A DNA stretch of 64,000 nucleotides, taken from contig NC_054536.1 in the NCBI RefSeq assembly GCF_017654505.1, forward strand, positions 91,478,470 to 91,542,469. The letters are read 5' to 3'. The notes below the pieces were generated by a model that searched no databases, was not told the origin of the DNA, and saw nothing but the letters and a program-made list of their open reading frames with translations. Shown piece by piece: positions 17,031 through 62,071 of the stretch (position 1 is the stretch's first letter; every line of letters starts with the position of its first letter). Source of the stretch: Polyodon spathula (taxonomy: Eukaryota; Chordata; Actinopteri; Acipenseriformes; Polyodontidae). Both the position numbers and the translations under genes were made by a program.

Positions 17031-17159
17031 CAAATAATGACAGTCTTAACCACACACGTAAACCTGGCAGAAAAAAAGAAAAGGGAACGGATTGGTGATG
17101 TGTTTCCTTTTCACATTGAAATGTGAGGGAGCGTTTTTGAGACAAGGCTGGGGGGTCTG

Positions 17160-18480: not shown

Positions 18481-18549
18481 TAGGCAATATGGAGGATGAT
18501 TTAGGCCCCGAGCACAAGAGCGATTTCTATGGGGGGAACAATTGGTTCC

Positions 18550-29507: not shown

Positions 29508-29635
29508 GTCTTTTTTGTTTAGTTCATGCTTTTAAATATTTGTGTAAAAAAACAACAGCCATGTTCATTGGTGATTATTGGTAAATTGTACCTGCAATTA
29601 TTCACAATACTGATGCTTTAACATCTCTGGGCAAC

Positions 29636-29856: not shown

Positions 29857-31085
29857 GCATTAACCTTTAAGAGTGATATGAGCACTAATAAGGTATTGCT
29901 GCAGTTTATTACACTATGTTCAAAGGTCCCATATGAAAAGCCATGCTGCATCCCACCTAAACTCTGTGACCTGCTTCTTGAGCAGGATGCTGTTCCTCGT
30001 TATTGAATCCGAGACTTCGTTACGGCTATGTCATGACACAGTCTACATTAGTACCAATGGAAAGCACAACCAGATATGCAAGAGCAATACAAAAAATAAA
30101 AATAAATATTTACAGTGAAACCATTGAGTAAATGCAGAGATATAGCTTTGAGGGAATCTGTCAATTAATTATCAATTAATAATAATGCTGTATTATTTTT
30201 GTTAATTATGAAATATATTCAGATGCACAAAAAAATTGCTGCAACACAGGGTTTAATATTTTTGACCAGCTCTTCTGCACAAAGGTCAACCTTAGTATCA
30301 GAACTTGTGCTTTACATACAGTAATGGCTTAATGGGTTCCAGGGATTACAGAATATTTTTTTCATTGAACTCTTTTAATTAACCCACTTTGAGATTTGAA
30401 CATCACATTAATTATGAGCAACACTGCAATTACTGTCTTGATTTAACAGTAAATGAAACCGAATACCAGAAAGAAAAAAAAAGGTTTGAGGCCTTTCTTG
30501 GATAAATGGGCAATTGTAGCCAACAGGCCTCCCTGTTTACTGACACAGTTTACAGAGTCATGTCTCGAGTCAACATAAATATGGCCGTTAATTAAAACAA
30601 TACAAATCTGTATTTACACTAACATTTCAACTTACTGTAGAGTACTACAGTTAAACTACAGTTTAAATTATACGTAAGCAATTACAGTATCAAGACAAAC
30701 TGCTACCTTCAATTCTGAAATTTAGTTTCCTTGTGAATTTTTGTAGGTCTTTATAAACTGCATTCGACTGGCATTTTGGGGTTAAAATATTTTCTTTGAA
30801 GCTGATTTCTGCACCATGCGTGGTCACCACAATAACTTCTAAATACTCAGAATGCCTAAGGCTACTTACATAAACTAGTTTTATAATCAGAGCCATGTAA
30901 ATATATAAAATTAGACCTGCTAAACAAAAAAAAGAATTGCTAAATCCAGGACTCTAACCTTAAATATGCACTTGTTTTTCTGGTTTGGTAACTGCAGTAA
31001 TGACGAGCATATAAATAAATATCTTTGACAGTCTAACCCAGAGTTGCCAAAACACCATCCTTTGTCTGGAGATGACGCACCCTGT
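29857..31085. other. Intergenic, no feature recognised
   Basis: AT-rich sequence without exons or RNA genes. I looked specifically for HACL1 exons on the minus strand and saw none. Confidence 0.55.
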
Positions 31086-31151
31086 AAGAAGAACATAAGA
31101 ACATAAGAAAGTTTACAAACGAGAGGAGGCCATTCGGCCCATCTTGCTCGT
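31086..31151 (-). mobile_element. 3' tail fragment of the CR1-like LINE
   Basis: About 65 bp (AGAACATAAGAACATAAGAA... to ...CATCTTGCTCG) match the inverse complement of the LINE 3' end at about 28,825-28,890, including the octamer repeats. It is an extremely 5'-truncated copy lying just downstream of the last HACL1 relic exon. Confidence 0.88.
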
Positions 31152-31169
31152 AGAAGGTGTGAGGCTGAC

Positions 31170-31232
31170 CTGTATGATCTTGACATCCGGATGGAATCTT
31201 GGGGGAGGCCAAAATGCAGGATCCAATTTAAT
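31170..31232 (-). pseudogene. HACL1: HACL1 relic exon LNWILHFG (1-bp deletion)
   Basis: After the acceptor TTCCAG the exon reads [10 protein letters not shown]. It loses frame in a run of five C where six are needed, then continues in the next frame as RFHPDVKIIQ before the donor GTCAGC. Human HACL1 has [21 protein letters not shown]. This is the last HACL1 exon seen. Confidence 0.88.
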
Positions 31233-31639
31233 CTGGAACCAAGCATTTGAATCACATCAGCATGCTACACAGCCCTGAGTAAAAGCATTATATTTTAACC
31301 TTCATGATGCTGAACATGCATTGAGTTACCGGAAGTTGTGCATAATTCTTTTTAAAAAGTACCGACACTTGTATTAAGTGATCTAAGAAAAAAGGAAACA
31401 ACACAGCAAGGTCCAATCGTTTCACAACTATTGTAATAATATGTGTTACTGGCTGTTTAATCTAAAACTTACCACTTTTGATCTACAGTATGATTAGTTT
31501 AACAGGCTACCCTAAGATCTCATGGACGTGGAAAACCTACTCAAGTATATATTAAATCAACCTGGTTAAACCTTGGTTCTGTGATTACATCTGTGCAGTG
31601 TAAATGAGTCAGAGTGCCCCAATGACCTTCTAAAACTAC

Positions 31640-31792
31640 AGCAAATGTCATAGTTATATTTAACAGAGCATACTGAGACATGAATGAAAGCCCCACGATA
31701 GGAACCCTTTTCCCATTGGCGTGGTAACAATGGAAGCCCAAACAGGTCAACTAGATTGCTGATAATACTTTTAGCTTGGGAATAAGCAGCAC
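31640..31792 (-). pseudogene. HACL1: HACL1 relic exon GAAY...LPLLP (frameshift)
   Basis: The acceptor ATTGTAG at 31,793 precedes GAAYSQAKSIISNLVDLFGL, aligning with human GAAYAHAEESIKKLVEQYKL. One base is missing after LPLLP, and TPMGKG is found in the shifted frame. Downstream similarity fades and the donor is unclear, so the left end is approximate. Confidence 0.8.
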
Positions 31793-32011
31793 CTACAATA
31801 CACATGTTTTTAATAATAATTTCAGAGCTGCTTTCAGACTCTTCGTTATTGAGGGGGATAAAACAAGCAGTGTCTGTTTATCTCGTCCTCAGCTTGGATG
31901 GTGAAAACTACCGGTAACACTAAGCGCTATCTGAAAGCTGGCCGACGTTATCTTCTTGTAGGGGGGTTGGTTGTTTTGTTTCATATTCAATCGGAATTTT
32001 ACTCAGTCCTG

Positions 32012-32013
<2 letters not shown>

Positions 32014-32104
<91 letters not shown>
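32014..32104. repeat. (GT)n-(AT)n microsatellite
   Basis: About 30 GT units with one interruption are followed by about 13 AT units. It lies in a HACL1 relic intron. Confidence 0.96.
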
Positions 32105-32109
<5 letters not shown>

Positions 32110-32689
32110 TGTTTACTATCTATGAGAAGATTTAGTTTTGGTTTCTCTTAGGGATAAATTACAAACAAGCTGGTTAATTACAATGAGAAAAAAAAAAATA
32201 GCCGAGTAGGATATATTTTATTCTTAACAGAAATCAAACTGATATTCAGAGGTAATATTTTTCATTATATTAAGAAAAACAATTGCATCACACTCAACTG
32301 CCGTTCATTCAATTCTTCTTGTCCCGCCCCATATTAACCAATACACATTCCTGATTCGCTGGTACAGTACTCCCCCAACTTCCACCTAATAGGCTCTCGT
32401 TAACTGTCAGTAAACTGTTTTCAAGCCCCAGAAACAATGCTGTAGTGCTGCAGATCAAAGCCTCTCACGGCACAGTTTCAAAAGTGCCTTAAATTATGTA
32501 ATAAAATATTGTAGCGATTGTAAAGCACAGTATTATTAATAAAGGCCGCCGTCGCTTAAGGGCCGCAGTCATTTTGATCAATTTAAAATAAACGACGCAG
32601 CGCCAAATTGAAGTAATAGGGTACTTAACGAAAAACTGGTGAAAAGTGAAAAATGTGACATTTCAAAATCTAACATGAAATACTGCACT

Positions 32690-32820
32690 ACTATTATGGC
32701 ATCTGGTAGACTTTTGAAATATCTTTTTGTAGTTTCTTTGATTACATGATGTTAAATGAAAGATCTAAATTATGTTCATAAAATTCTAGGAGATGCAAAA
32801 GCTTCCGCCATAGCTGTATG
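32690..32820. mobile_element. Fragment of the 14.6-kb MITE family
   Basis: The stretch TTTTTGTAGTTTCTTTGATT...AACATAATT is the near-exact inverse complement of 14,700-14,755. The end GCCATAGCTGTA matches the left terminus of the MITE at 14,632. One half of the element is missing or diverged. Confidence 0.7.
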
Positions 32821-33039
32821 AAGGTTGACCATTATCACTTCACTTCTGGAGGCTAGTGTTGGCATAGTGAAGAAAGGCAGCTACAAAAATGGATTACTTA
32901 CTTATTTATTATGATGTTCAAAAAGACAAAAACACAGTAAATAACCCTTTGGACAGATTCAATAAAAACTCCAGCTTTAAGCGGCAGTACTGGTTGGTGA
33001 AGAATGCTTGAATAATGAGGTCTTGAGAACCAGGGCTAC

Positions 33040-33152
33040 CTTTACCAATGATAAGGAGAGGTCTCTTGGACTGTTTTAGGACAGACACTGCTTGAGACAC
33101 AGACTGAGGTTGTGCCAAGGTGACTGGAGGTAGCAAGCAACACGGCACTTCT
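33040..33152 (-). pseudogene. HACL1: HACL1 relic exon ending LLIIGKG
   Basis: An open exon with acceptor TTTGCAG and donor GTAGCC. It encodes LPPVTLAQPQSVSQAVSVLK followed by [12 protein letters not shown], aligning with human [29 protein letters not shown]. It is in phase to join the exon at 31,792. No lesion is visible within it. Confidence 0.88.
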
Positions 33153-33386
33153 CTGCAAAGCAAACACAACGCAGACAAGGCCAAGTTAAGTCTAATCTTT
33201 TGTTTACTACACATAATATGGTTTACTGGATGTATAAAAAGTGTGTAAAACATACATCAAGATTTTTTTGCTATCAGTTGACTTAATGCTCTATATTATT
33301 TCATACAAATGTATATGGTATGTAAAACATTTACATGGTATATTAAAATGCAGAGAATACAAATCAAGAGCAATGTCCTACCTCAC

Positions 33387-33452
33387 TTATGAGCTGTCCA
33401 CTTTGCCATTTACCATGTCTCCAGGTATGTCATAAATGCGTCTTCTTACTGC
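33387..33452 (-). pseudogene. HACL1: HACL1 relic exon, stop codon and deletion
   Basis: The readable part AVRRRIY-DIPGDMVNGKVDSS aligns with human [20 protein letters not shown] and the residues after it. The eight residues GRPGACYV are deleted. A TAA stop lies just before the donor GTGAGG. The acceptor side appears one base short relative to the upstream exon. Confidence 0.78.
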
Positions 33453-33807
33453 TTAGAAGGAAGGATAAAAAGTGGCTGTTTTTGGTTTCAGGGTAACCCC
33501 GACTCTGATGTGGGGTACTAGATGGCAGTATTATTCATTGCGTATCATAATACCAATACCACTCTTAATACCAATGACAACTGTGTATCAAAACCATGTT
33601 AATGCAATACAGCAAAAGAACCTGTGTTTTCTTTTTCAAACCTAACACTTATTGTACATTTCTGGTTGATATCAGTAGCACTATCTTACTTTACCTGACA
33701 GGTAAAGCTGTGTAAGATTAGTGCTAAGGGGGACTATAGCACTAGTTACAGTCATAATAGTATAATAGCACTCTGTATGAGGCTTATAAATATCACAGCT
33801 TAAATAC

Positions 33808-33885
33808 CTTCTCAATGACTGATGGAATGGCGTCAAGGCTGCTGGGCCTTGCTGAGAATTTACTATAGTGTCTACAGGCTTCCAC
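33808..33885 (-). pseudogene. HACL1: HACL1 relic exon [10 protein letters not shown], intact
   Basis: A perfect 78-bp exon with acceptor TTCCACAG and donor GTATTT. It encodes [20 protein letters not shown] then PSVIEK, nearly identical to human [20 protein letters not shown] plus PFVIEK and the same length (26 codons). High similarity here implies that decay of the gene is recent. Confidence 0.92.
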
Positions 33886-34524
33886 CTGTGGAATTAAGAA
33901 CAAAACACAATACAAGTATCTTCACAAAAGTATATCATATAAAATGTATATACATTTACAATAACAGGCCTTAACAAAACTGGCAGGAATTAACTTGGCC
34001 ACGAATTAGATCCTACAGATGTTTTGTACGATATTTTTAAAAAATGCTTGCATTGCACAGCACCAGGTTAATTCTACAGGGTTATGTCTCTGCCATAGCA
34101 CTTCTGAATATCCCAGTGTCAATACAGCTACTGTAGCCCAAAATGACATATGCAATCATATATTTGAAATGTTATGCAGTGCATGTTTCTTTTTGCAAAT
34201 CCATTACTTTTTCAACCTTGGATTATCATGGCCTATTATTAAGAATGGCATTTGGCACTTAAGGCAGTATGTGTATATTCGTCTTTAACTGTTTATGATC
34301 AACTGAAGCTGGAGATTTATTTTTCAAAGCGGAAAATCAGATTGCTTTATCTGTGCATTTCTGACAAACCAACCAGGATTTTAAAAAATGTATGTATTTA
34401 ACCATCTATTCATTTAACTTCATTATCTTTCCCTCAGAAGCTTGTGTCCGCATTACTAGTACAGAACAAATTAAATCCATTGTTGACTGAAAAGTAGTGC
34501 ATCAATAAAACACGGTTACATTAC

Positions 34525-34605
34525 CGGCAATTCATGTTAGGATTTTCCATTCTTCTTAAGGCATGAATGAGACCTGGACCGTAGACAAGAAGACACACTG
34601 CTGGC
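34525..34605 (-). pseudogene. HACL1: HACL1 relic exon [10 protein letters not shown]
   Basis: An 81-bp exon with acceptor TTTTTTCAG and donor GTAATG. It encodes [16 protein letters not shown] then [10 protein letters not shown]. Human HACL1 has [26 protein letters not shown]. The conserved Gly-Gly after HAL has become Arg-Arg. The next expected exon (PLLVIGGSSERNQ) was not found between here and 33,885. Confidence 0.88.
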
Positions 34606-35779
34606 CTGAAAAAAAAGATTCCCATAGTAACAAACAAAACATATCCAGATCTGTAGACAAAATATTGATAGTGTCTACATGGTACCTACAGCAGCTGGAA
34701 GGCACGTTTAAAACACCTGTGATATACCACAAGGCACAAAACTTTGTGTATATAATGAATTAGCCGACAGCAGAAGCAGCATAGCAAGCCTATTTTGGGA
34801 AAAAAAAAAAATAATAATTTGCTAATTTAGGACAGTGAGGAAAATGTGTCTGCTTAAGACAAGTTATTTATAACACTTAATGAAATGCTTTACCCTTAAT
34901 CACTCAAAACAAAAACACAGCATTGTGTTTAATTAAATCTTAAGAGCAAAACCTGCCTTACATATTCTGTTCTGGCATTTCCTCGGTATTGTATAAAATG
35001 ATAATTTAAAGGGCAATTAAATCAGACAGGATCTTTAAAAATAGAATTAGAATTTATAACAGTAGTTTAAACGTACTTTTCATGAGTCTACTGCATTTTA
35101 ATGTTAACAGCAAAGGTGAACGTCCGCTGCTTGCCATCTATTCATTTCTCGTTCCCACATTCTTAATCCTAGGCTCTTGGGCTGCCATGGCAACTTCTTT
35201 TTATACTGCATTTGAATTTTAGATATGGTAATTTAAAATACAGTACCGAGATAGACAGCTCTGTTGAATATGTTGACCAATTCAGAGATTCTGGCTATTT
35301 GAAATGTTTGATTTACTGAAGAGTAAAAGTATGCATATTAAGCTAATTACAGTATGCTTTTTTACTCAGCATACAATACAATGATTCACATATTTTCATG
35401 TCTGCTCTTGTCTTATAAAGGCTTTTTAAGTGCTAGATATTTTTATTTTTTTACACTTTTTGTAATTTTGTAGTTCACCTTGAGAAATGACTGTTAAATC
35501 ACTTCTCAATACTTCACCATGATTTCTTAGGGTAGGTGTCGTCCTACTTATGTACAGTGTGATGGAAACTAACAGGGGTATAGAGAGACCAATACTTGCA
35601 CATTTGTGTGTGCAGTAAGCAAAGTGAACATGAGTTACACCCTGCAAAGTTTACAAGAAATACGTTATATTACTATTGCCATGTCCTGTATTGTCCGTAT
35701 TGCAGTGTTATATTTTTATACATATTGCCAACTGTTTACATTTTTTTTTATCCCACAGCAAAAACCCCTTGCCACCCTT
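34606..35779. other. Region upstream of HACL1 relic, no feature recognised
   Basis: HACL1 5' exons should lie from here upstream, but none is visible. The sequence is AT-rich and unique-looking up to the gypsy fragment. Confidence 0.5.
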
Positions 35780-37860
35780 TACCAACCCCCAGGTACTGTC
35801 ATTGTAGGATGGACCGGAGATGGCACCTTCCTTAATGCTACTGTCCACATCGGAGTACCATGCATCGCACTCATCGATACAGGGTCTTCCATCACTATTG
35901 TCTGCCTAATGTGATACACAGAGCCAGGACAATCCCACCCCAGTACAACTGAGAACGGTAACCGGCTCCTACCTCTGCCAGCCCATCAGTTCCACTCCCG
36001 AGGGATTGCCACCCAATATAGCAAGAGGTGCATCATTTGTTAGCAGTTCAAACCCTGCGCCCCACCCCTGCTACCCCCTCAGCCCAACACGGAGCTCAGT
36101 CGGCGGTGAAGACGGTCTGGTGCAACAGTTGCGAGGGGCTGTGGATACTGCTGATTGAGTTCCAGGATGCTGGTCTGAAGAAACTGGCTGCCCTCACCTG
36201 GTCCAGCATGTGATTGACACGGTAGAAACCCGCCCCATTCGCCAGCAACCACACCACCTCCCCTGTCCCGACAAGGAGCTGTGGATCACATATTGTGAAA
36301 GATGCAAGAGACGGATGTCACCGAGCCCTTGGATAACCCCTGGGCCTCTGCGGTAGTGCTTGTACCCAAGAAAAATGGGACTTGGCGATTCTGCATCTCA
36401 ACGAGGCCACAATAAAAAACTCGTACCCCCAACCCCACATTGATGAGTCGCTGGACCTGAAGCCCACCCCAAGACTGCCTTCTCCAGTTCAAGGCCTGTG
36501 CAACATGCCTGCCACCTTTGAAAGGCCTATGGAGCAGGTACTGACAGGCATCCCCCCTCAGCACTGCCTGGTCTGCTTAGATGACCTTCTGGTCCACGCC
36601 GCCACATTTGACGAAGCCCTGGCTAACCTGCAGACCACGTTACAGCGCCTCAAGACTGCCAGGCTCAAGTTGCTTTCTGATAAGTGTTAACTGATGCAAA
36701 GTGAGGTGGCATTCTTGGGACACCGTTTGGGGAAGGATGGGATCAGCCAACCAACACCAGCTGCAGGGATTCTTGGGTCTGGCCTTCATACCCCAGTTTG
36801 ACACCATCGGCGCCCCCCTCCACCAATTACTCCACAACAACCAAACTTTCCTATGGTCCGAGCATTGTGCAAACGCTTTCGGCTCCCTGAAAGATGCACT
36901 GATCCAGGCCCCCATCCTAATGCCCCCAGGACCAGAGTTGCCCTCCCTCCTTGATACCGATGCCATTGATCAAGGACTCGGGGTGGTGCTGTCACAACAG
37001 ATGGCCAGAGGCGAGTGAGTCATTGTATTCTTCAGCCGAGCCTTCAACCGTGCCGAATGCAGGTATTACGTCACCCGCCGAGAACTCCTGGTAGTAGTCG
37101 CTACTCTCAAACAATTCCGACCATACCTGTGTGGAAGACACTTCACCCTGTGCATGACCATGCCTCCCTCCAGTGGTTGGTTAGTTTCAAGGAGCCTGAA
37201 GGACAACTCGCCTGCTGGTTGGAGCAACTCCAAGAGTACGATTTTGTCATCCAACACTGAGCTGGCAATCGCCATCAGAATGTGGACTTCCTATCGAGAC
37301 GTCCCTGCTTGTAATCTGGCTGCTGCCACTATAATAAGAGGGAGCAACAGGAGTAAGAGGAAGGAACCAGGAGAGGAGAGGGAGAGATAGGAAAGGCATG
37401 TTACGAGCTCACCGTTGTTCCAGCCACAGTGGAGAGCAGAACAGGAGCAAGACCTGGACTTGCAGCCCATCTTCCTATGGCTTGCAGGGGGTATGTGGCC
37501 CACTTGGGAAACCATTGGCATCTGCTCCCTAGCTACAAAGGTCTGTGAGCACAGTGGGGAGGCTTGGCCCTCCGGGAAGAGGTCCTGCAATGGTGCTGGT
37601 TTGAACCAGCGTCAAAGAGGAGAGATGGCAGCTGGTGGTTCCCCGTACACTATGCTGCCGACGAGACATGGAGGTTCACTGCTGCCGTTATGATGGCTGC
37701 GCAGCCCGCAAGGGCCCTCCCAGTCAGTCCTGTTTGCCTTTGCAGCAGTTCCCGGTTGGAGCGCCCATGGAACAGTGTCTGACAATGGCAGATCAACGGT
37801 TTCTTCTCCCAGTTCGGAGCCCCCCAAGAGTTGCACTCTGACCAAGGAGAAACTTCATTT
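35780..37860 (+). mobile_element. Ty3/gypsy fragment, plus strand: PR-RT-RH-INT
   Basis: Protease CIALIDTGSSITIV lies at about 35,865-35,907. RT pieces are PLDNPWASAVVLVPKKNGTW (about 36,325), ATFERPMEQVL and the catalytic VCLDDLLVHAATF (about 36,570-36,610), and VAFLGHRLGKDGI. RNase H includes LDTDAIDQGLGVVLSQQ (about 36,955) and FSRAFNRAECRYYVTRRELL. An integrase piece FFSQFGAPQELHSDQGE ends the fragment near 37,850. The order is standard for Ty3/gypsy. Frameshifts and deletions abound and no LTR is attached. Confidence 0.85.
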
Positions 37861-39960
37861 CCCAGTGTTTCTCCATTTCACAGCTGAACTTGCGCATTAA
37901 AGTGAAAAGAAATACTTCATTTCCCAGTCTTCAGACCAGCTGCTTGCAGTGCGTAGGTGGGTCAGAGCTTCTTCAAAGGTAATAGCGTGGACCAGCAAAT
38001 CATCAAGGTACTCCAATGAGCGTCCGCTCCATCAGGCGCTCGAATGTCGCAGGTGCGTTACAGAGTCTGAAAGGAAGAACCTTGAATTGCCAGTCAGCAT
38101 CCAGTGGAGAAGGCTTTCTTGGGGCAGGCGACGCTGTCGAGCTCCACCTGCCAGTACCCGCTTCTCAGATCCAGGGAGAAGAACCAGGCAGAGCTGGCAA
38201 CCAGGACGAAGGACTTATCTTTGCGAGGCAGGGGGTAAGAATCCTTCTTGGTGACATTACTGAGGCGGTGTTGTCTTGGGCACCAGGACAACAGGGGACC
38301 CCCAGGGCTGCTTGATGGTTCTTTGACGTCGGTGGCCTGCATCTCTTGCAGCATCTGGTTGGCTACCTCTTGTTAGGTTATGGTGAGATGCCGTGGGGGT
38401 TGGCGAATGGGGCGGGTGTCCCCCATGTCAATGGAGTGCTCACTAAGTGGGTGCACCCCGTCTCTATCGGCTATGCAGCAAAGAGGTCAGGGAACTCGGA
38501 AAGCAACAGCCGGTCACATTGATCGCTTCTAGCCCTTCACAGTTCAAGTCCAGGCCTAGGATGGAGGGATCTTGAACGGCAGCTATCCAGACTTCATGGT
38601 GGTATTCGTAGCCTCCACATTTGATCCTCAATCAAATGTGGAGATCCTCGCACTTCTATGGGGGCTAGTTCACCAGTCACCGTCCGTAGCCAGACAGTCA
38701 CTCAGGTTTTCCAGTCAGTGCGGGTTTGGTGGGTGACATCAGGGTGGACGACACTTATAGAAAAGCCTGTATCGATAAGAGCTGTGCACGGTACGTCTTC
38801 GATCTTGACTGGGGTGTATAGGAAGGCTTCTTCTTCGGTGCGCCCTACAGCAGCAGGAACAGATGTCAAAGTGCAGCTTTGGGGGTCGGGAGGTGGGGTC
38901 TGCATCTTCCCCTCTATGCGGACCTGTTCTCTTTTCCCAAAGCCTGACAGGCATCGGTCTCAGCGTCAGTAGATCCTCTTTATGTCCCGCACCCTCTCAT
39001 TGTTCCACGGTCTGTTCTTAAGTATGTAAGGCCCCCTCTCACTCTCCTGTTCTTGCTTGATCCAGGAAATTTGGAGGTTTCTGTAACTGATTTTGCAGCA
39101 GCAGGCTAGACTTGCTTTCTGTAATTCGCCTCTTCAGGGCCCTTAAAAGGACTCTGTAGTCAGCTCTTTCCTCAGGTTCCAAATCCAGTAGTATCTCTAG
39201 TGTGGCTCCTTCAAGTGGTGGGTTAGATAAGATGCCTTCATGACGAGCTCCAGCCGCGCTCAGTGGCTGAGAGCGCAAACTGGGCCAGGAAGGGTTCAGG
39301 CGATGTCTGCCCGGAGAAGGGGGGGGGGGGGGTTCAGTTTAGGGCAGGAGAGGGTGTGTGCCTGAAGCAGCAGTGCAGTAGCAGGGTTTGTCGGTATGGT
39401 GGATGTAGGGGCCGGTGATGGGGTGGTAGTAGTAGGTAGTGGCCTCTTGCTGTGTTCAATTAACAGCTGCTCAAACTGTTTCAGCAGGGTCTAGAGGTGA
39501 ACTTGGGCAGCCAGAGGCGAGGGTCTTGGTTGGTCTGCTCCAACCACTGACTCAGTGCAGGACATCTGTAGTTTTGAGGGTCTGGAGGCTGTTGCATTGG
39601 TGGGGGTCTGTTTTGGCTCTGCAGCTGTTCCAGGTCGAGCTTCTGGGGAAGCAGCGTAAAGCAGAGTTCTGGGGGCGGCACGTCTCGCAGCAGGGTAAAC
39701 TCCTTCTCAGTATATCGGCAGTGTGGGGAAAGGCAACATAGGTCTGCTTCTTTTTGTCCACTTTCGTGAACACTCCCTCTTCCAGCTTCTTCATCAGCCA
39801 GGCAGCTGCCCATTCTCTGTTCCCTGCTTCTAGGGTGTTCAAATCCAACCTCTTCATATGCCACTGTTCCCACCACCCCCCCCCCCCCCCCCCCCCCCGC
39901 AAGTTCAGTACAGAGCACTCAAAGTCCCAATTCTCAGTTTCATTGACCCTGCACTACAAT
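37861..39960 (-). mobile_element. Ty3/gypsy fragment, minus strand: gag-PR-RT
   Basis: Read on the minus strand from about 39,960. Gag-like frames occupy 39,918-39,040 (including LLDLEPEERADYRVLLRALK). Protease is CTALIDTGFSISVVHPDV (about 38,760-38,810). RT is AWFFSLDLRSGYWQVELDS (about 38,180), PATFERLMER and LDDLLVHA (about 37,990-38,060). It stops near 37,920 and meets the plus-strand fragment tail to tail. The two pieces look like the same or a closely related family. A run of about 20 C lies at 39,878-39,898. Confidence 0.82.
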
Positions 39961-40144: not shown

Positions 40145-40680
40145 TTGCAGCAGCAAAGGTCATTCAAAATGACAAGATTCAGAACTGGGCAGACACATGG
40201 CGAATTACATTTTATAGAAAAAACTGTAAGGTACTGCACACAGGCAATAAAAAATGTGCATTAGAATATTGCATTATTAATATTGCATTATTATATTAGA
40301 GATACCGAAATTGAAGAAGGAATCTATGAAAAAGACCTAGGAGTTTTTGTTGAATCAGAAATGTCTTCATCTAGACAATGCGGGGAAGCTATACAAAAGG
40401 CCAACAAGATGCTCGGATATATTATGAAAAGTGTTGATTTTAAATCAAGGGAAGTAATGTTAAAACTGTACAATGCATTAGTAAGACCTCATCTAGAATA
40501 TTGTGTTGAGTTCTGGTCACCTTGCTACAAAAAGGATATTACTGCTGTAGAAAGAGTGCACAGAAGGGCGACCAGAATTATTCCGGGTTTAAAAGGCATG
40601 TCATATGCAGACAGGCTAAAAGAATTGAATCTATTCAGTCTTGAGCAAAGAAGATTACAGGGTGACCTGATTTAAGCATT
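40145..40680 (+). mobile_element. Fragment of the CR1-like LINE (RT C-terminal part)
   Basis: It corresponds to about 28,050-28,565 of the LINE copy. It reads EIEEGIYEKDLGVFVESEMS, REVMLKLYNALVRPHLEYCV and RRATRIIPGLKGMSYADRLK. It has neither the catalytic RT motifs nor the 3' octamer tail, so it is an internal fragment. Confidence 0.92.
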
Positions 40681-41302: not shown

Positions 41303-41458
41303 TCACACATAAAAACTGTTGTTCTCCAGCTTCTGCCTATATCTGTCATAGTTGGAGTTTATTTTTCCTCCCATATTGCCGAGCAGTTTGTCTTTTCTCC
41401 CCATGCCAACCAGCTTAATGCCTCTTCTGTTAAAGTAGGACTGGAGAATGTTGTAAAA
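41303..41458 (-). CDS. C2orf66-like secreted protein, last coding exon
   Basis: The acceptor CTCTTCACAG is followed by 51 codons and TGA at 41,303-41,305. The exon starts in phase 0 with FYNILQSYFNRRGIKLVGMG and ends YDRYRQKLENNSFYV. Joined to the exon at 42,553-42,672 it completes a 91-residue protein. The block NLFYNILQSYFNRRG resembles, from memory, the DLFFRTLQAYFKGRG block of human C2orf66, and the tail with Y-x-x-Y/N-S-F is similar in kind. It contains no cysteine. Basic pairs (RR, RK) could be processing sites, which is speculative. No lesion is seen. Confidence 0.8.
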   Translation of the reverse strand, partial: FYNILQSYFNRRGIKLVGMGRKDKLLGNMGGKINSNYDRYRQKLENNSFYV

Positions 41459-42552
41459 CTGTGAAGAGAACGGAGAGTTCAAACATGACATCGTGGTCTT
41501 GTTAAACAATCAAGGCTCACTTTCAAGCCATCTACATCAGGTACACTGGTTGAAAAAGTGTAGATATTGAAAAAAAGAATTCTGCATGATCCAGGATGGT
41601 CAAAACAGAAATAAAAGCAGTCTGTTGTAGCCTCATGCTGTAGTTTTCTGTCATTATACAGGCTTTTTTTTTACTGTGTAGTATGCTATATTTAGTATAC
41701 AAAGATAAAAAGACACCAGCAAATTAGACACAAATTATTTTTCTTACTTTGAATCATTCTCGCAGTCTAATTGCAGACTAATATGCTGTTTTGGTAATTC
41801 ACACACAATACCAGCTTTAAAGCTTGTTTGTGCATTTTTTTAAACGAGCATTTCCCAAAAGGATTCCAAGTGCATAGGTTTTATCTTCAGTGCAGGAGAT
41901 GAGTTAAAAGCAAATATTTATTTGTGTGCATTGTAACCTGTTAAGGACATAACTGCATAATAATGTGCACAAACAAGACATGTGAATATAGGAAGAGTAA
42001 AGTTCAGAAAGTAGTCTGTTTATATTGTTTAGCAGAGAGTTTCATGAACTAAACATACAGATAGAAAACTACTAAACTAAATTCAATAAAAAAAAAGAAA
42101 AAACTGCCCAGCATAGGACATTTAGGTGGTACGTTAACCAGTCTCTTCTCTTCGCTTATACCGGGTTTTTTCAATTAAGGGTTACCAGTATTTTGATACC
42201 GGAGTTAAGGGAAGTTTAATCTGTGATGCTTGCTCCAAGTAAAAAAAAAGAATGAATTGCACATTATCTAAAAGAAAATCCCTTTTAATAAGCATCTAAT
42301 TTCCTACAAACAAACAAGCTGCAAGTAGTATATCAAACAGGATTAGTCACGTATTAGAGAAATATTAAAAGAATAATCCATTTTTAAATGATTCACGTTC
42401 CTTCATTTCCAGCATACAAAACTGTAGAATCATAGAAATAATTTCCAGATTAGTATTACATTTACTGACAGATCATATACTGGTATTTAATTTCAATGTA
42501 TTGTTTAACAAAATTATTATTTTAACCAAAATAAAAGTGTGAAATAACTTAC
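41459..42552 (-). other. Intron 2 of the small secreted-protein gene
   Basis: A 1.1-kb intron with donor GTAAGT at 42,552 and acceptor CACAG at 41,459. It is A/T-rich and carries no recognisable transposon. Confidence 0.7.
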
Positions 42553-42672
42553 CAGGTTCCTGTTCTGTGGATTTCCTAGATATTTCCATTCTTCACCTGA
42601 ATCAGGCTCCGGTGTAACACAAGTAGCAAGTAATATAGTCACAAGGACTGCTGCAAACTGAGCATGCTTCAT
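42553..42672 (-). CDS. C2orf66-like secreted protein, start codon and signal peptide
   Basis: After the acceptor CACCCTGTAG the exon begins G-ATG. It encodes 40 codons: MKHAQFAAVLVTILLATCVT, then PEPDSGEEWKYLGNPQNRNL, ending before the donor GTAAGT in phase 0. Residues 5-18 form a hydrophobic signal-peptide core, with cleavage likely before PEPDSG. The E-W-x-x-L-x-N-P-x-N-R-x-L pattern matches my memory of the mature N-terminus of C2orf66 (W-x-P-L-N-N-P-x-N-R-D-L). The start is the only Met before the signal core and lies one base after the splice site. Function is unknown; a secreted peptide or hormone-like factor is inferred only from the architecture. Confidence 0.8.
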
Positions 42673-42821
42673 CCTACAGGGTGCAAAATAAGAATGCACA
42701 AACATACATCTATATCTTGTTTAACAAGTTAAGAAAAAACACATTAAATCATAATCAAACTGACCCTGTTGATATTGCTGATGCATGCATTTCATCAGGG
42801 AGAAGTGTGTGTGTGTCTTAC

Positions 42822-42890
42822 CTGACTGAAGTTTGAAAAGCTTGTGGACACAAAACGCAGGTTTGTCAGCACAAACGATTTTCCTCTGTG
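42822..42890 (-). other. Noncoding exon 1 of the small secreted-protein gene
   Basis: A donor CAG|GTAAGA occurs at 42,821/42,822 on the minus strand, about 95 bp downstream of a TATA box. The predicted exon of roughly 70 bp has no ATG in frame with exon 2. The layout (TATA, short 5' UTR exon, signal-peptide exon) is typical of small secreted-peptide genes. The transcription start is inferred from TATA spacing. Confidence 0.55.
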
Positions 42891-42917
42891 TCCTCTCCAG
42901 CCCTCTTTGCAGCCATC

Positions 42918-42924
42918 ATTTATA
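42918..42924 (-). promoter_or_regulatory. TATA box (TATAAAT) of the small secreted-protein gene
   Basis: On the minus strand GCTATAAATG sits about 30 bp upstream of the inferred start near 42,890 and 95 bp before a good splice donor. Nearby upstream sequence (minus strand 42,970-42,935) shows no recognised factor site. Confidence 0.55.
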
Positions 42925-44719: not shown

Positions 44720-45560
44720 GACATTGCCTTTCTGCTGTTTATGAGAAGAGTCACGCTGAACCTGAACACCTGTGGTGTGTGCAGCCAGCAGAAAGCGCTG
44801 GAGCACATGAGCAAAAAACTGGAGATATTTGAAGAACAGGCAACTGAGACTTTACGAGACTAGCATAACTCTAATAGAAAAGTATAAAGTGAAGCATATC
44901 GTCTACGCACTGCCTGGATGAATCAGATGCCACTACTGGCTTCTATTCAGATCCAGCAGTCATTTGCAACTGCATTTGGATTAAACTTTCTGGCAGCCAA
45001 TATTCACAGTATTGTCTTGAATATGACCAGCAGTGGCATACCCCTTCACACTCGGTTTACCATTACAACACAGATACTAAGGAAGGCAGGCTTCTAGTGA
45101 CCAAGGTTCCTGTGCTCACAAACAGTGGTGGTGGCTCTTTTAAGAGCAATGTCTGGGATGTTTCCAGTGTGCAGCCCCATCCACAGTCTTCATTCTGTGT
45201 AAACAGAGACCAAGTGTGTGGTGGACCCTCAATTACTAAGATTAAAATCTGCCCAGGCCCCTTCCATGCAATAATGATGTATGATAATTACACGTTTGTC
45301 CCTCTTGTCGAAACACAAGTTGACTTTGACAGTATGTGATGGCCGTTTCTGCTGCCGATATCACATATCAACGTACCAACTCTACCAGTGAGCTCTATTC
45401 CCTCGGTGCTTTTAATGGGCTGCATGCAGTCCATGGTATTTATTACCTGGAGGTGTGCGCCCTGGTTAAGTGTGCTGACTCAAGCAGGGAGAGATGCAGA
45501 GAAGGAGTCATAGAGGCTGAGAGGTGGTTCAGAAACGGCAGAAGCACAATGCTGCATCAA
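44720..45560 (+). pseudogene. BTD: BTD (biotinidase) relic lacking its catalytic core
   Basis: Plus-strand pieces of the biotinidase/vanin family appear in order. First comes the N-terminal block with QQKALEHMSKKLEIFEEQAT (44,779-44,840; human [20 protein letters not shown]). Then YKVKHIVY, and shifted by one base [20 protein letters not shown] and [10 protein letters not shown] (44,895-45,030). Then [35 protein letters not shown] (about 45,265-45,310), and ELYSLGAFNGLHAVHGIYYL with EVCALVKCA (about 45,393-45,480). At least four frameshifts separate them. The ~140 residues between IFEEQAT and KVKH are missing; they hold the Glu-Lys-Cys nitrilase triad. Best match is BTD rather than vanin by FH-x-x-MMYDN and by synteny. 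Confidence 0.85.
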
Positions 45561-45599
45561 TGCCAGTTCTGAGACGTCATAACTCGTCTGTGTGAAAGG

Positions 45600-47234: not shown

Positions 47235-48169
47235 TATATGGTATATATAATGTTATGTTTCTGCCAACTTCCCAATGTTTCGGTATGTTAAACATACCTT
47301 TGTCAAGGGAAAGTGTGTTTGAAAACAAACATTGGCAGTCATTATAGGCTTTTGATGCCATGGCAACTACTCTCCCTTATTTTTATTGAAATCTATTAAT
47401 GTGTTTGATGTCATTTACTGCACAGTTAGTAATGTCACGATCTACTGTTCCTTTCTGTTTAACCCTCCTCGCATCGTGGTATTGAGTCTATTTCTGTATT
47501 TGTTTTCCTTTAGTCTTCTGTATTGTATATTATCTAATAGTATTTTTTCTAAAACTACAAATTGTTTGTCATTCATGTTATGTTACTTTTTTGTTGAACT
47601 ATTTGTTAATTGCCTTTTTTGAGAGCTGCTTCTGTATTATTTTATATAATGCTGCACTTGCCTCTCCTACATATTTTATTTTGTTATATATATTGACTGA
47701 AAGAAAATGTACCCCATTTCAACTCAGAGTGTGGAATTAGAACTGCAGGTGATACAACTGAACCACAGTAGTGCACTCAGGAAAGAGACATTGTCTCTAA
47801 CATGCTGGTCAATATAAAGCAAGAGGGATTGCAAGCTAAGCTTACCATCTGGACCAGTGTCTTTATAGACTTGGAGTGTCTTTTTAATACTGGTACTTCA
47901 AAGCTGGTGTCCAACTGCATTCAATCTGTTTGAGCTGAGAAGTTCGCACGTTGTCTGCGCCATATCGTAATTTATCAGTCCACTGAATTTCTTCAGGCTT
48001 GTTGCCTACATGATGTCTTTGAGAATGAGGCAGTCTGTCTGAGGTAAATATGTGTAATCAATTTAAGTGCATTTACTTATCTGTTATTGTATTATTACAT
48101 GCGTAACCTATGGAGGATATCTTTTTTACTCGGCAGTTGATTCATTTACATACTCTGTAGGAAAATGAT
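47235..48169. other. No feature recognised
   Basis: AT-rich DNA with chance open frames only. The composition changes abruptly to GC-rich at about 48,170, where the next gypsy element starts. Confidence 0.5.
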
Positions 48170-50879
48170 GCTCTAAGAGAACCTTTCTCGAGGCTTCGGC
48201 CCAGCGGCAGTCAACCCCGGGGCCCGAGCTAACCGCCGAACTCCAGCCACTGATGATGGAAGTCTGTCTCGGCCCCCTAGCTCAGCAGCAGCCCACACTC
48301 TGGCAACATGACATGGACACTGCAGCAGCTCCGAGTCGCATTGGCGAGCGGCACTCAAGCCTGATCAAGCCAGGGAAGTTTAGCAGGAAGTATATGCCAG
48401 GAAAAGAGAGGCTGCAGAAAAGCTGGGTGTCTTGGCCGTGGACACTGAACATTTGGCAAGCCGTGCCTTCAAGGATGCGCCACCTGAGCTCACCGAATGG
48501 CTTGCCCTCGACCTATTCATCCATGGCCTCTTTCCTAGAGAGCTGCGTCTCCATGTCCATCTGGCCCACCCACGCTCCATCTCACAGGTACTTGAGAAGG
48601 CAGATAAAATAGAGGCTTAATGGAAGAGTCCAGGGCCAGACGCCATAGTGGAACCAGAACCGTCCAAGCTGCTGACCTTTCCGGGACTAAGAGCAAGGGG
48701 GAACCCGAAGGGGAGGCAGAGCAACCACGGAAACCGCCAAACTGCTGTCAGTGTCACTGGCCCTTCACCAAGCCATGACCTTGGCCTGATCCTACTAAGG
48801 CACCTCAGCCCCCCAAGCCGCCGGGGAAATGCCAGCGGGTCGGCGTAGTGGAGGAACCACCAACCCATCTTACAGCACCCTCCAAACCAGCAACCCTCGG
48901 GTTCGTCGGGCGCATAGGACAAGGGAGAAGCCTGCATATCCAGTGCCAGCTTAACGGATTCCAGTTACAGGCCCTGGTCGACACCGGATCCACCATTAGT
49001 CTGCTATGCCCCGACACCCTTCCTATGGACAAAGGGGGGAACCTAGAAGTGTGGCACCCCACTACAGCCAGGATTAAGACATTCACTGGCCAAGTGGCAC
49101 CCATCCATGGCAAATGAGTTCTAGAAATCTGATTGGGGGACCTCCTCCTGGCCCATGAATTCTGGCTTGCTGACATTGGGGACCCGTGTATCCTAGGCTT
49201 AGATTTACTCTCTAAGGCTATTGCACGGTTGGTGCCTCAGGGTTCCGGAGCCAAGCCGTTACCAGGGGTCCACCAGACGCTGGGCTTCCAACTACACAGC
49301 CCTGCCACAGACACCACCAATGCCGCACTCCTCCACGTGCAAAAGGCTGCCACGACCATGCCAACTCAAACTGAAAACCTGCCTACCACCTGCCCCGACA
49401 CTGAACCCCTGGAACAGGAAGGAGTGGTAGCTGAGCTGTGGAAACGCAGCCGCAATGGCCTATCTTCTGACGATCAGAAGTCACTCTCCCACCTCTTGCA
49501 TGAGTTAACGCAACGTCTTCTCCGCTAACTCCCAGGACTATGGCTGCATCGGGTTAGTTCAACACACCATTGACACAGGTTCCACACGCCCCATCCGCGA
49601 AGGGTTTCTCCACCCACTACTGGCCAAAAAGGAGGCTGCTGAACGGATGGTGTGAGAGATGGCTGCTGCCGGAGTCATCGAGCCATAGGACAATCCTTGG
49701 GCAGCCCCCGACCTGCTAGTAAAGATGGAGGAAAGGACCTACCAGTTCTGCATGGGCTATCGCCAACTCAACGCAGTGTCCCACAAGGACTCTTACCCTC
49801 TTCCCAGGATCGACGAGGCCCTAGATTGCGTCGCCGGGTCTTTGTGTTTCAGTTCCTTGGACCTCCGGAGTGGGTACTGGCAAATGGAACTAGACACAGC
49901 TGCACATGCCAAAATGGCTTTCTCCCTCGGACAAGAGCTTTGGACTGTGCAACTCTCCCGCTACCTTTGAGCATTTAATGGAAAGAGTTCTAGTGGATGT
50001 ACCCCGGTCGGTTTGTGTAGTCTACTTGGATGACCTTATGGTGCACGCCCCCATCTTTTAGTAGCTTCATGAAAGACTTTGCCCGACTAGCCAAGCCTCT
50101 AGATCGCCTAACCGAGAAAAGATACCGGTTCCAGTGCGACTCTAACTGCCAGAAAGCCTTCAACCTGCTTCCGGAAACTCACCCAGACTCCGGTTCTCGT
50201 CTTCCCTGATCCCCCAGAAGGAATTTGTCCTGGACACTGATGCTAGCAATGTGGGCATCAGGGCAGTACTTGCACAACCGACGCCAGAAGGAGAACAAGT
50301 GTTAGCCTATTTCCATGCCTCTCTCCAGTGGCTGCTGTCTTTCAAAGAGCCCAAAGGACAGGTAACCCGTTGGATAGAGGAGCTTCAGGGGTTTGACTTT
50401 GCCATCTGCCACCGAGCTGGTCATTGTTATGCAAACGCATACACTCTCATGCCGCCCCTGTGAGGAGAGCTTGTGCTAGTACTGCATCTGCCTGGAGCAG
50501 AAGGAGCGCCTGCATGAACTGGAGGTGAGGGTCGTTAGCGACGGGGACAACGACGCCACGTCGCTTTTCACACCGGTAGCCCTCCAACAACTGCAGCAGG
50601 ATGACCCAGAGGTAGCCCCCGTCCATCAGTGGAAGTTAGCCGGACAGTGACCTTGTAAGGAGGACCTTGCCAGGATTTCCCCCGCGGTCAAGGCGCTCTA
50701 TGGTCAATGGGAAGGTTTGGAAATCAAAGAAGGCATCCTGTACCGGCACTGGTGACTCTCACCGCTGGCAACTACTGGAGCCAGTGTCATGCCGACATGG
50801 AAACTCACTGCCGCTGGTGAGACACTCTACACTGCAGCAGTACCAAGTGGGGGCACGCCTCGAGCAGGTGGGGGTCGAC

Positions 50880-51916
50880 GTCCTGGGCCCCTTCCCTGCA
50901 CAGATCTTGGCAACCATTACGTTCTTGTGGCCATGGACTACTTTATGAAGTGGCCCGAGGTGTATGTGGTGCCCGATTAAGGCGCCATCACCTGTGCAGG
51001 CGCCCTACTGGAGGGAATGTTCTCCCAGTTCGGTGTCCTCGAAATGCTACAATGCGACCAGGGAAGAAACTTTGAATCCCAGGTCCTTCATAGGGTTTGT
51101 GACCGTCTGGGTATTCGCAAAACCCGGACGACGCCTGTCCACCCTCAGAGCAATGGGTTGGTGGAGCGTTTTAATAGAACGATGTCCATCCAGCTGTCGA
51201 TTGTGACCTCCAGCCACCAGCGCGACTGGGATAGTCACCTGCCCTTGACACTTCTGGCTTACCGGACCACCACCAAAGAATCTACGGGCTGCACCCCAGC
51301 AGCCCTGTTGTTTGGCTGCGAGCTGCATACCCCAGTTGAGCTACAGTTTGGGAAATCACTGGAACTGGAGTTGAGGGAGGGCCCCGGACTGAAATATCTG
51401 GCCACTCTCCAAGATTGCCTGGAAACTGCCCATGCTTTCGCCCGGGAACATCTACAGGGGGCTGGAGTCTGCCAGAAACAGGCCTATGACCACCGTACCC
51501 GTGACCAAGAGTTCCAAGCAGGTGAGCTGGTCTGGGTGTATTGCCCGCGGCACAAGAAGGAACTCAACCCTAAGCTGGATAGCGTCTGGGAAGGACCCTG
51601 CCAAATCCTAGAGCGTCTGACAGAGGTGGTCTACTGCGTGAGACTCCGCACCCTGAATTGGATTGTGGTGCTGCACAGAGAACATCTGGGTCGCTACCTA
51701 GGAAATAATTCCAAGGACCCCGCGGCCGACCACCCATCCCGGCAAAGCCCCCACACCAATACTGCTCCTGCCTCACCGGACTCAGAGCCTGCCCGCTCTG
51801 GGTCTGCACTGACCAGCCACCGCCACGCCAGTCTCCCCCCCTGCCTCGCCGGACTCGGAGCCTGCTACAACTGGGACCAGACAGCAGACCCTGCTCCGGA
51901 GCCAGCAACAGCGTAG
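50880..51916 (+). pseudogene. Integrase region of the 48-52 kb gypsy element
   Basis: The longest open frame of the element, 51,017-51,916 (299 codons), carries the integrase core MFSQFGVLEMLQCDQGRNFE (Asp of the DDE triad), HPQSNGLVERFNRTM (Glu) and TPAALLFGCELHTPVELQFG. A GPY/F-like C-terminal part follows with LVWVYCPRHKKELNPKLDSV and HREHLGRYLG. The first catalytic Asp appears upstream as VAMDYFMKWPEVYVVPD in another frame near 50,930. A stop at 50,979 separates the two. Confidence 0.88.
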
Positions 51917-51990
51917 GCTGCCAGTTCATTTCTGTCGCCGACTATTTGTCTATGGCCAGCCAGGACAGCTGGAAGCAGGGGGGGGGACGA

Positions 51991-52430
51991 CAGTGTAACG
52001 AGCTGGACCTGAAGCTAGAGCTACTCCCCTCTGTCGGACGGCTTTGGGACACTTGGTGTAGAGACTCATTTGTATACAGTGGAGCAAAGGACTATGGGGA
52101 TGGTCCAGTACCCGATTATTTTCCAAAACTATAAATGTTATTGTGTTAAAATGAAGAGTTTTATCTTCTGTTATTGTTCCTGTGACCCTCTGTATCTGTC
52201 TATGAAATGTAGGTCAGTCACCGTCATGTCACCATCTAGTCCGTGTGTGCCCCTTCCCCTCTGTGTGTCCTGTTTTTGGCTTGTTTCTTTCCCCAGTCTC
52301 TCTCTGTTGAGAAGATGTGTTGTCCTTTTAAGGGTTACTGGGAATTAAATAAAAAGCCCTTCTGCTAAAGATCCATCACAGTCTCTTTCATTGAACCCAT
52401 GCAAGCAGAAATGCTACAATGCAACTGCAT
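51991..52430 (+). repeat. 3' LTR of the 48-52 kb gypsy element
   Basis: Starts TGTAACGAGCTGGACCTG shortly after the integrase frame, following a purine-rich tract GGGGGGGGACGACAG. It contains AATTAAATAAAAAGCC as polyadenylation signal near 52,345 and ends near 52,430. Without a second copy the exact end is uncertain. Confidence 0.7.
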
Positions 52431-56125: not shown

Positions 56126-56370
56126 CACCAATGAGCCAGTTCACACATGCAACATACACCAGTGAGCCAGTAACACATGCAGCACAAAGACCAGTGAGCC
56201 AGTGACACATGCAGCACAAAGACCAGTGAGCCAGTGACACATGCAACACAAAGACCAGTGAGCCAGTGACACATGCAACACAAAGACGAGTGAGCCAGTG
56301 ACACAGCAACACAAAGACCAGTGAGCCAGTAACACATGCAACACAAAGACCAGTGAGCCAGTGACACAGA
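56126..56370. repeat. 32-bp minisatellite
   Basis: About 7.5 copies of a 32-bp unit containing CCAGTGAGCCAGTGACACAT and GCAACACAAAGA. Small deletions occur (GACACAGCAAC near 56,300). Because 32 is not a multiple of three and the unit lacks stops on the minus strand, all three minus frames stay open. The resulting ORFs are artefacts. Confidence 0.95.
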
Positions 56371-58989: not shown

Positions 58990-59276
58990 TCAATAGGTCT
59001 CAGAGTCCGAGTCATTGAGTTCATCGTCTTCATTGTAAGGGTATCCGTCCTCCCTTCCAATGTTGTTGAAACTGCAGTAGGAGCTGTGTTCGTTCCTCAA
59101 GATGGGCAGCGAGTCGAAGGTGACTGTCTTGGAAGTGTTGGTGAAGTGATTAATGGCGTTAAAACTAAGAGTGGGCAAAGCAGTGTTAGGAGACACAGGC
59201 ATCATGGTGGCCAATATAAGAGCGAGGCAGTCAGCAACGTCTTTGTTTGGGGCACATGCCAAGGCGGGTGTGTAAC
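58990..59276 (-). CDS. ANKRD28: ANKRD28 last coding exon (C-terminus)
   Basis: The acceptor CTTTGCAG precedes GT-TAC, and the frame runs YTPALACAPNKDVADCLALI to ...SSYCSFNNIG and DELNDSDSETY, ending TGA at 58,990-58,992. This is the C-terminus of the ankyrin-repeat regulatory subunit A of protein phosphatase 6. Human ANKRD28 ends almost identically in DELNDSDSETY. The first ~20 residues finish the last ankyrin repeat; the rest is an acidic, probably disordered tail. The phase-1 junction joins the exon at 60,004-60,095 (G|GT, Gly). No lesions are seen. Confidence 0.96.
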
Positions 59277-59328
59277 CTGCAAAGAAAGTTTGTTCAGAAA
59301 TAAAACAGACATTAACTAGTGGCCTTAA

Positions 59329-59366
<38 letters not shown>

Positions 59367-60003
59367 AGCAATGGTATTATCCACAATTTGACTATTCGTT
59401 CCGAGCCTTGCCTGTTTGTATGATTTCCTCATTTCCCCTTCTGTATCATCACACCACAAGGCTGGTTCTGTCTAGTATCTGGGATACAACAGAGCTTTAC
59501 TAAAAATAAAGACACAAACTAACTTCAACTGTAGAGGTCGCCACAATAAAAATGGTTAAATATTAACTAAGCCCAGGTAATAAATAAATAACCTTGGTCA
59601 ACCTTTTATTAATGATTTCTTTCTAGACACGATTCTTAAAATGGGTGTCCCCTCAACTACACAGAATAAAGCTGCCTTAAAAAAGTCCCTCTACTTCCCA
59701 AACTCTACAAATATCTAAAAAAATAGTCTGCAGGTCATAGAACCAACCCTAAATCAATAAAGGCCCCATGCTGCTAAACCAGAAAACCAAAACACCTGAT
59801 GTGCAGCCACATCTATCCAATACAATTAAAAAATGGCACAATAACACCCACTGTAAATACAATTGTACACTTAATCTGCAGCAAAATGAAGGAAAAAAGT
59901 ACAACACACATGGTTAAAGATGGTGAAGATCGTTGATGATGATTTTATGAAAGTTTTCTTTTACTAGAAAGCTGATTTAAGTGCAGCATGGGTTAACGCT
60001 TAC
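59277..60003 (-). other. ANKRD28: Last intron of ANKRD28, with poly-C run
   Basis: A 727-bp intron. A run of 37 C (59,330-59,366; poly-G on the transcribed RNA) lies only 54-90 nt upstream of the acceptor of the last exon, in the region where the branch point is expected. Otherwise AT-rich. Confidence 0.85.
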
Positions 60004-60095
60004 CATTCTCATCTACAGCAAGAACACTGGCGCCTTTTCCTAAAAGTTCTTGTACTACCACAGTCAGACCATGGCGGGCAGCCACATGCAAGGGT
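60004..60095 (-). CDS. ANKRD28: ANKRD28 ankyrin-repeat exon
   Basis: A 92-bp exon with acceptor TTCCCCTAG and donor GTAAGC. It encodes [20 protein letters not shown] and [10 protein letters not shown] plus one G. Human ANKRD28 has the same segment with Asn for His and Met for Val. It is one canonical ankyrin repeat (T-PLH-A-A--G hairpin and two helices). ANKRD28 uses such repeats as a scaffold for PP6 holoenzyme assembly. The reading frame continues perfectly into the last exon. Confidence 0.95.
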
Positions 60096-60333
60096 CTAGG
60101 GGAAAACAAGAAGCAACTTTAAACAAAGACAGAACAAAACTGGGCGAAATAACTACTAAATACAATGAAATATAGGGTTCCATTTTTTGTACAACCTAAA
60201 TTATCCTGCAAAGTAGTGTGATTGTGTGACTAGGATCACCCCTTAATTAAATGATGTGTTGACTGAAATGAGGGAAACAAAATGATATTATTAGGCTATT
60301 AAAGTACTTAGATGGCATAATTTTATTTATATA

Positions 60334-62071
<1,738 letters not shown>

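Follow-up and report, generated by a model that had tools for sequence, protein, structure and literature searches.

C2orf66, the PF15846 protein of tetrapods, coelacanth and sharks, is one of the closest known relatives of the gene described here. It is alike in its signal-peptide-like start, its core (EEKWKxLxNPRNRDLFFRTLQAYFxGRG) and its two predicted helices, and differs in its longer middle stretch and in a C-terminus that is KG in most cases. Searches of the open-licence literature found no functional study of C2orf66 and no mention of a paralogue, no paper for DUF4720, and nothing usable on the synteny block or paralogon; C2orf66 is reported as a protein-array hit (PMC11323535).

The corresponding fish proteins form a grouping separate from C2orf66, with QNR or QSR/KSR and LQSYF or LQSYL; in 26 of 29 rows the last residue is V or E. 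Zebrafish c16h2orf66 (Danio P0132) and Polypterus P0123, a 'C2orf66 homolog', fall in the same group as the present gene; their records name them as C2orf66 orthologues, and the tree makes them paralogues. Since these and others are already on record as 'C2orf66 homolog', the term unannotated, which an earlier note on this DNA had offered as one possibility for mammals, does not fit this gene, and it is the label that hides the paralogy. If the fish 'C2orf66' is a paralogue, orthology tables for the family are wrong, and knockout or expression work on fish c16h2orf66 says nothing direct about human C2orf66. The Labeo rohita member (P0141) is labelled '2-hydroxyacyl-lyase 1', a hint of HACL1 adjacency there. 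A second copy in two cartilaginous fishes, Pristis P0129 and Chiloscyllium P0148, has the QQNRDLFFRILQSYFTG core, as has the paddlefish protein; Pristis is also alike in closing its signal region with CVTPEP and in having a GLGRKEKL tail (GLGRNERL in Chiloscyllium). This second copy is represented by two rows only, that of Chiloscyllium being without its C-terminal end, and where it falls in the tree changes with the root.

The window, that is, the whole 64,000-nucleotide stretch of Polyodon spathula DNA analysed (contig C3, 91478470-91542469), carries a member of the fish group. C2orf66 proper is called type A below, the clade of the window gene type B, and a turtle and gecko set type C. Taken as a whole, the reading that we consider probable is that of a functional gene of a second ancient clade of the C2orf66 family, type B, split from type A before the cartilaginous lineage left that of bony fishes, most likely an ohnologue within the ANKRD28/ANKRD44 paralogon and encoding a secreted ligand.

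The gene, its family and its neighbours

Read on the minus strand, the two coding exons splice in phase 0 and encode a product of 91 residues, MKHAQF...NNSFYV (MKHAQFAAVLVTILLATCVTPEPDSGEEWKYLGNPQNRNL from exon 2 and FYNILQSYFNRRGIKLVGMGRKDKLLGNMGGKINSNYDRYRQKLENNSFYV from exon 3); exon 2 encodes the signal-peptide-like start and the beginning of the conserved core. The coordinates, junctions and product put forward in the earlier note all stand on this reading, and the donors and acceptors it named are where it placed them (Table 1). This is a real small gene for a predicted secreted protein: chance is countered by the DUF4720 match, the identity with sturgeon proteins and the homeologous copy, all given below. 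A recent retrocopy is ruled out by the intron, which is common to the homeologous copy described below. A carp-like protein of 72 residues from a metagenome contig (P0153) runs past the same leucine as ...TRTL then VS, like read-through of a GT donor, so the intron is very likely at the same place there.

Table 1. Positions of features, counted from the first nucleotide of the window
Feature	Position	Strand	Remarks
Collagen-like exon	615-1094	-	Collagen 18.5 bits, below cut-off 27.2
Tc1/mariner transposase-like open frames	9765-10460, 60638-61676, 62939-63265	-	by eye
G+C-rich LTR-retrotransposon-like frames	16026-19460, 36337-39338, 48169-52131		by eye
LINE-like reverse transcriptase	26448-28535; second fragment 40265-40675		by eye; second fragment just downstream of gene
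37-bp minisatellite	28892-29511 and 26296-26526		17 and 6.2 copies; one unit at two places 2.4 kb apart
HACL1 remnants	30222..34685	-	frameshifts and stops; 2-hydroxyacyl-CoA lyase match for one exon, E 0.001
Possible poly(A) signal, ATTAAA	41191..41196	-	AATAAA at aligned place on C4; putative use
Coding exon 3	41303..41458	-	acceptor TTCACAG before 41458; FYNILQSYFNRRG core, tail, stop TGA; 51 codons and stop; open in homeolog
Phase-0 intron	41459..42552	-	1094 nt, after L40 codon; same position in C4 copy (819 nt)
Coding exon 2	42553..42673	-	acceptor TGTAG before 42673; ATG at 42672, coding part 42672-42553; 40 codons; donor CTG/GTAAGT after 42553; open in homeolog
Predicted non-coding exon 1	42822..42895	-	3′ end 42822, donor CAG/GTAAGA after it; 5′ end assumed about 25-30 nt past TATA box; region and donor kept in homeolog
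TATA-like box, TATAAAT	42918..42924	-	upstream of exon 1; GCTATAAATGATGG kept in C4 homeolog; putative promoter element
BTD (biotinidase) pseudogene	44720..45569	+	Vanin_C E 8e-11; pantetheinase E 4e-6
32-bp minisatellite	56127-56368		7.6 copies
ANKRD28, last two exons	58993..60118	-	open; 59996-60118 (Pfam Ank E 4e-6), last exon within 58993-59376

The product matches Pfam DUF4720 (PF15846) over residues 14-57 with 42.1 bits (cut-off 27; E 8.3e-11), a score above the gathering threshold that confirms the proposed membership of the C2orf66 family; two relatives, P0001 and P0002, score 50.4 and 48.9 bits. A profile search gave 160 proteins, and the 120 listed, human included, all have PF15846 and in most cases bear the name C2orf66 or C2orf66 homolog, hence the equation of DUF4720 with the C2orf66 family. 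A second profile search gave 42 proteins with fish relatives at the top: Megalops, Anguilla, Aldrovandia, Conger, Polypterus, Danio and other carps, catfishes, characins, Arapaima and two cartilaginous fishes. Searching with the single sequence returned two proteins, predictions from Acipenser ruthenus and A. sinensis, at 87-88% identity over the full length. Residues W29, L32, R38, L40, F41, L45 and Y48 are invariant across 31 aligned rows, and eight core residues are so over 60 rows, from sharks to mammals; the window protein has both family traits, the signal-peptide-like stretch and the W-K-x-L...R-x-L-F...L-Q-x-Y core. A search of solved structures found no relative, its single match being at E 3.2.

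The A. sinensis prediction, P0002, starts with MEISRKSTEQ, which is exon 2 in another frame, and continues with apparent intron sequence. The model is faulty, and it suggests that the A. sinensis assembly has exon 2 a second time a short way upstream.

Among the neighbours, the HACL1 remnants include two exons with Pfam TPP-enzyme matches below cut-off; with the 2-hydroxyacyl-CoA lyase matches, HACL1 is the probable name. BTD is the presumed identity of the pseudogene rather than vanin, and a frame overlapping that pseudogene (44893-45336) had no useful match in domain or protein searches. The ankyrin exon is backed by Pfam, and the minus-strand frame 58993-59376 fits the placing of ANKRD28 16 kb away in the earlier note; the name and the assignment of this last exon are presumed, a protein search with it having given low-complexity matches only. 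The collagen-like exon is probably COLQ, by the gene order in human.

The predicted secreted chain and its possible role

The hydrophobicity profile peaks at residues 8-19 (mean 2.77); beyond residue 22 the highest mean for any 12-residue segment is 0.04. The window protein has one hydrophobic stretch, at its N-terminus, and the claimed signal peptide is present as a signal-peptide-like start. With the mature chain taken from residue 21, 71 residues remain, with no cysteine and a net charge of +5. The signal peptide would pass this chain, some 71 residues long, to the secretory pathway. A short helix would be formed by the chain's conserved core, EWKxLxNPxNRxLFxxxLQSYFxxRG, with a second helix near the C-terminus. 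AlphaFold places helices at 35-51 and 76-87 in the window protein, and at 36-52 and 80-99 in coelacanth C2orf66, in low-confidence models (mean pLDDT 63 and 65 respectively) with a low-confidence link between the helices. We infer that the helices would be the active part and would signal through a receptor. The most likely function, by the same inference, would be that of a secreted, cysteine-free helical peptide serving as an extracellular signal. The chain would then be a peptide ligand working extracellularly, probably in a neural or neuroendocrine setting, though for the window protein this role is put forward tentatively, its chance being somewhat short of even.

The same features would also suit a matrix, enzyme-binding or antimicrobial helical peptide. 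Such peptides likewise combine a positive charge with a lack of cysteine, and the core helix has a hydrophobic moment no higher than that of shuffled sequences (p 0.13-0.41, five sequences), for which reason amphipathicity is not claimed. However, the invariance of the eight core residues over 60 rows is unlike fast-evolving defence peptides, and most type A proteins end in glycine, as a peptide bound for amidation could. With these points on either side, a product of this other kind is rather unlikely, and the ligand reading is kept.

Terminal glycine is the substrate of the amidating enzyme PAM. It is found in 98 of 117 type A proteins (in 89 of them as KG or RG), in none of 29 ray-finned B proteins and in one of the two cartilaginous B-like ones, and the window protein, ending in ...NNSFYV, is without the C2orf66-type glycine tail. 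Type A may therefore be amidated and ray-finned B not. An internal G-R-K after residue 59 was considered as an amidation-cleavage site and rejected: it is found in sturgeon, the window protein and Pristis and is GKK in Polypterus, and it is absent from eel and zebrafish.

In the table for dissected eyes of slc4a7 morphants, zebrafish c16h2orf66 is among the 15 most risen genes, in the company of gh1, urp2, ghrh, npvf, otpb and pomca, and also of homeobox genes and a heart myosin gene (PMC11403715). The tabulated changes may reflect brain and pituitary tissue carried along with the eyes, and say nothing on mechanism; if so, they are a weak hint that c16h2orf66 is expressed in neural or neuroendocrine tissue.

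A wider proposal can be offered as speculation, with the chances against it: C2orf66 and the window gene might belong to a so far unrecognised family of vertebrate peptide hormones that arose in the early genome duplications, each being one arm of it and the turtle and gecko set perhaps a third. Reciprocal loss would have left B to ray-finned fishes and A to mammals, the arms would differ in their C-terminal finish (A having a conserved terminal glycine suited to amidation, which ray-finned B lacks), and B would resist loss after further duplication while its neighbours decay.

The homeologous copy and the probable maintenance of the gene

When the fish's own genome (an assembly of 1,541,705,134 bases) was searched with the window, a second intact copy of the gene was found on contig C4, the match being in four pieces (75-88%). 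The product of this copy is MIYSVSQFAVVLVTMLLIACVTPEPDSGEDQWKSLGNPQNRNL / FYKILQSYFNGRGINLVGMGRKDKLLGNLGGKTSSSYDRYRQKLEDNDSFYV; both its coding exons are open, and its intron is at the identical position. In the block comparison 26 of 35 matches passed a filter on strand and rough offset, and, repeats aside, matches follow the same order on C3 and C4 over HACL1, the gene, BTD and the end of ANKRD28. The genome of this fish is duplicated, and the window is one member of a pair of homeologous blocks, a point missed in the first reading. Both copies of the gene, judging from their sequences, have been kept intact since the sturgeon-paddlefish genome duplication.

The neighbours have fared differently on the two sides. 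Compared with seven C4 exons of HACL1, which are readable there, the window remnants have four indels in 486 aligned nt, three of them frameshifting, and in-frame stops in three of the seven (one exon being aligned over just 22 of its 69 nt). BTD, whose last exon on C4 is an open frame of 392 codons, has seven indels in the window, all frameshifting, in 803 aligned nt of two exons (nt 289-974 of the 1176-nt C4 frame being aligned). The decay of HACL1 and BTD in the window block is gene loss after the acipenseriform genome duplication. With two neighbours dead in one block, the retained gene pair serves as a natural control, and suggests preservation of this uncharacterised secreted protein.

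The gene itself, over 265 aligned nt (the first codons, MKHA versus MIYSVS, being left out), differs from its C4 counterpart by two indels, both of 3 nt, without frameshift or early stop. In 868 aligned nt of nearby non-coding sequence there are 46 indels, 39 of which are not multiples of three; at that rate 12.3 frameshifts would be expected in 273 coding nt, against none observed (Poisson 4.7e-6). The upstream stretch, with the TATA-like box, exon 1 region and first donor, is 89% identical over 328 aligned nt with three indels, and when it is added to the non-coding sample (42 in 1196 nt) the expectation is 9.6. At the rate of the neighbouring pseudogene exons it falls to 2.1, with a probability of none of 0.12; these exons had protection of their own for some of the period. 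Substitutions give Ks 0.196 and Ka 0.105 over 91 codons, a ratio of 0.53 (bootstrap 0.23-1.31), and the ratio for the 70 mature codons is 0.37 (bootstrap 0.13-1.21), that is, weakly below 1; divergence in intron 2 is 0.31.

It can be asked whether the window copy is on its way to becoming a pseudogene, with a frame open by chance in a block that is being lost, with the C4 copy as the working gene. The broken HACL1 and BTD adjoining it fit such a course, as does the figure of 0.12 just given. The branch to the window protein is also long (0.09-0.11, versus at most 0.02 for two Acipenser rows and 0.05 for C4), two residues are missing in frame, and otherwise kept sites are altered, for example WKSL to WKYL and GRG to RRG (RRG is also found in opossum and rat C2orf66). 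Against this, all splice sites are kept, the frame is undisturbed where about a dozen frameshifts would be expected at the non-coding rate, and the promoter region is conserved; with Acipenser as the yardstick, the window and C4 copies deviate alone at 11 alignment columns each. Incipient decay is thus improbable, and the combined evidence of the alignments favours a maintained gene, the window copy being perhaps under somewhat relaxed constraint.

Paralogy with C2orf66

For the trees, 33 of 153 fetched proteins (14 type A, 13 ray-finned B, two cartilaginous B-like and four sauropsid) were used with the window protein; they are unrooted and rest on about 95-99 columns. In the full set B and the cartilaginous B-like copies lie on one side of a branch with support 94/95, and A likewise with 67/83; without the four long-branch sauropsid rows and Arapaima, A stands apart from B and the shark copies at 100/100. 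As long as the sauropsid rows are kept, only 56-67% of bootstraps set A apart on its own side of a branch. The ray-finned B rows lie on one branch side at only 58/65 (full set) or 62/35 (reduced set), and a further tree nests the shark pair among them.

Among the rows from cartilaginous fishes, three are of A type (Hypanus, Heterodontus, Scyliorhinus) and two are B-like (Pristis, Chiloscyllium), and a single clade of shark A and shark B-like copies is rejected at a cost of 42 log units (p 4e-4), a result that holds for any root. A shark-specific duplication is rejected with it as the source of the B-like copies. Since the two kinds do not form one clade, the A/B duplication predates the divergence of cartilaginous from bony fishes, and the earlier claim of a paralogue is borne out to that depth; the early duplication is supported by these trees. 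By tree path, shark B is much nearer to the window protein than to C2orf66 proper. That the shark copies belong in B is suggested by branch lengths and the parsimony of a single duplication, and depends on the root.

The two early whole-genome duplications (2R) are the probable origin of the split. Presumably C2orf66 is near ANKRD44, and the window gene is linked to ANKRD28 in both homeologs, C3 and C4; elsewhere the linkage is one of name hints only, namely the P0141 label and zebrafish chromosome 16. A small-scale duplication before jawed vertebrates would also yield two clades. The tree dates the split only to before the parting of cartilaginous and bony fishes, and no lamprey row is among the matches listed. 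But ANKRD28 adjoining the gene in both homeologs, with C2orf66 presumably near ANKRD44, is what a duplicated block predicts, and this makes a small-scale event decidedly improbable beside the 2R origin.

Least probable of all, to the point of being very hard to sustain, is that the window gene is an ordinary fast-evolving ray-finned orthologue of C2orf66 with no second paralogue: public records do say 'C2orf66 homolog' for fish sequences, and among the matches listed each ray-finned species has one type only, but a clade of the A proteins of bony animals with B is rejected by AU tests (p 8e-9 and 4e-6, at a cost of 42-43 log units), which with the trees places the window protein outside the clade of tetrapod, coelacanth and shark C2orf66, shark A and B-like copies are not one clade, and the neighbour is ANKRD28, not ANKRD44.

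As to the distribution of the two paralogues, no species among the matches listed (rows being clustered) has both A and B, and no ray-finned row there is of A type (13 were filed by tree, the rest by match rank). The mammals among the matches listed (120 of 160, and 42) all have C2orf66 proper, which is no proof that B was lost.

A third type of C2orf66-like protein is found in the turtles Natator and Platysternon and the geckos Sphaerodactylus and Gekko (P0149-P0152), one of the four being labelled 'EF-hand calcium-binding domain-containing protein 7'. With these rows in, the groupings of A with shark B (p 0.39), of B with C (p 0.375) and of A with B without the shark copies (p 0.38) are all allowed. 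Grouping C with B and the shark copy, or with A, differs by 0.07 log units, so that the two are equally likely. The sauropsid proteins have QNR, LQSYF and RGI in common with the window protein, and could be the tetrapod B gene.
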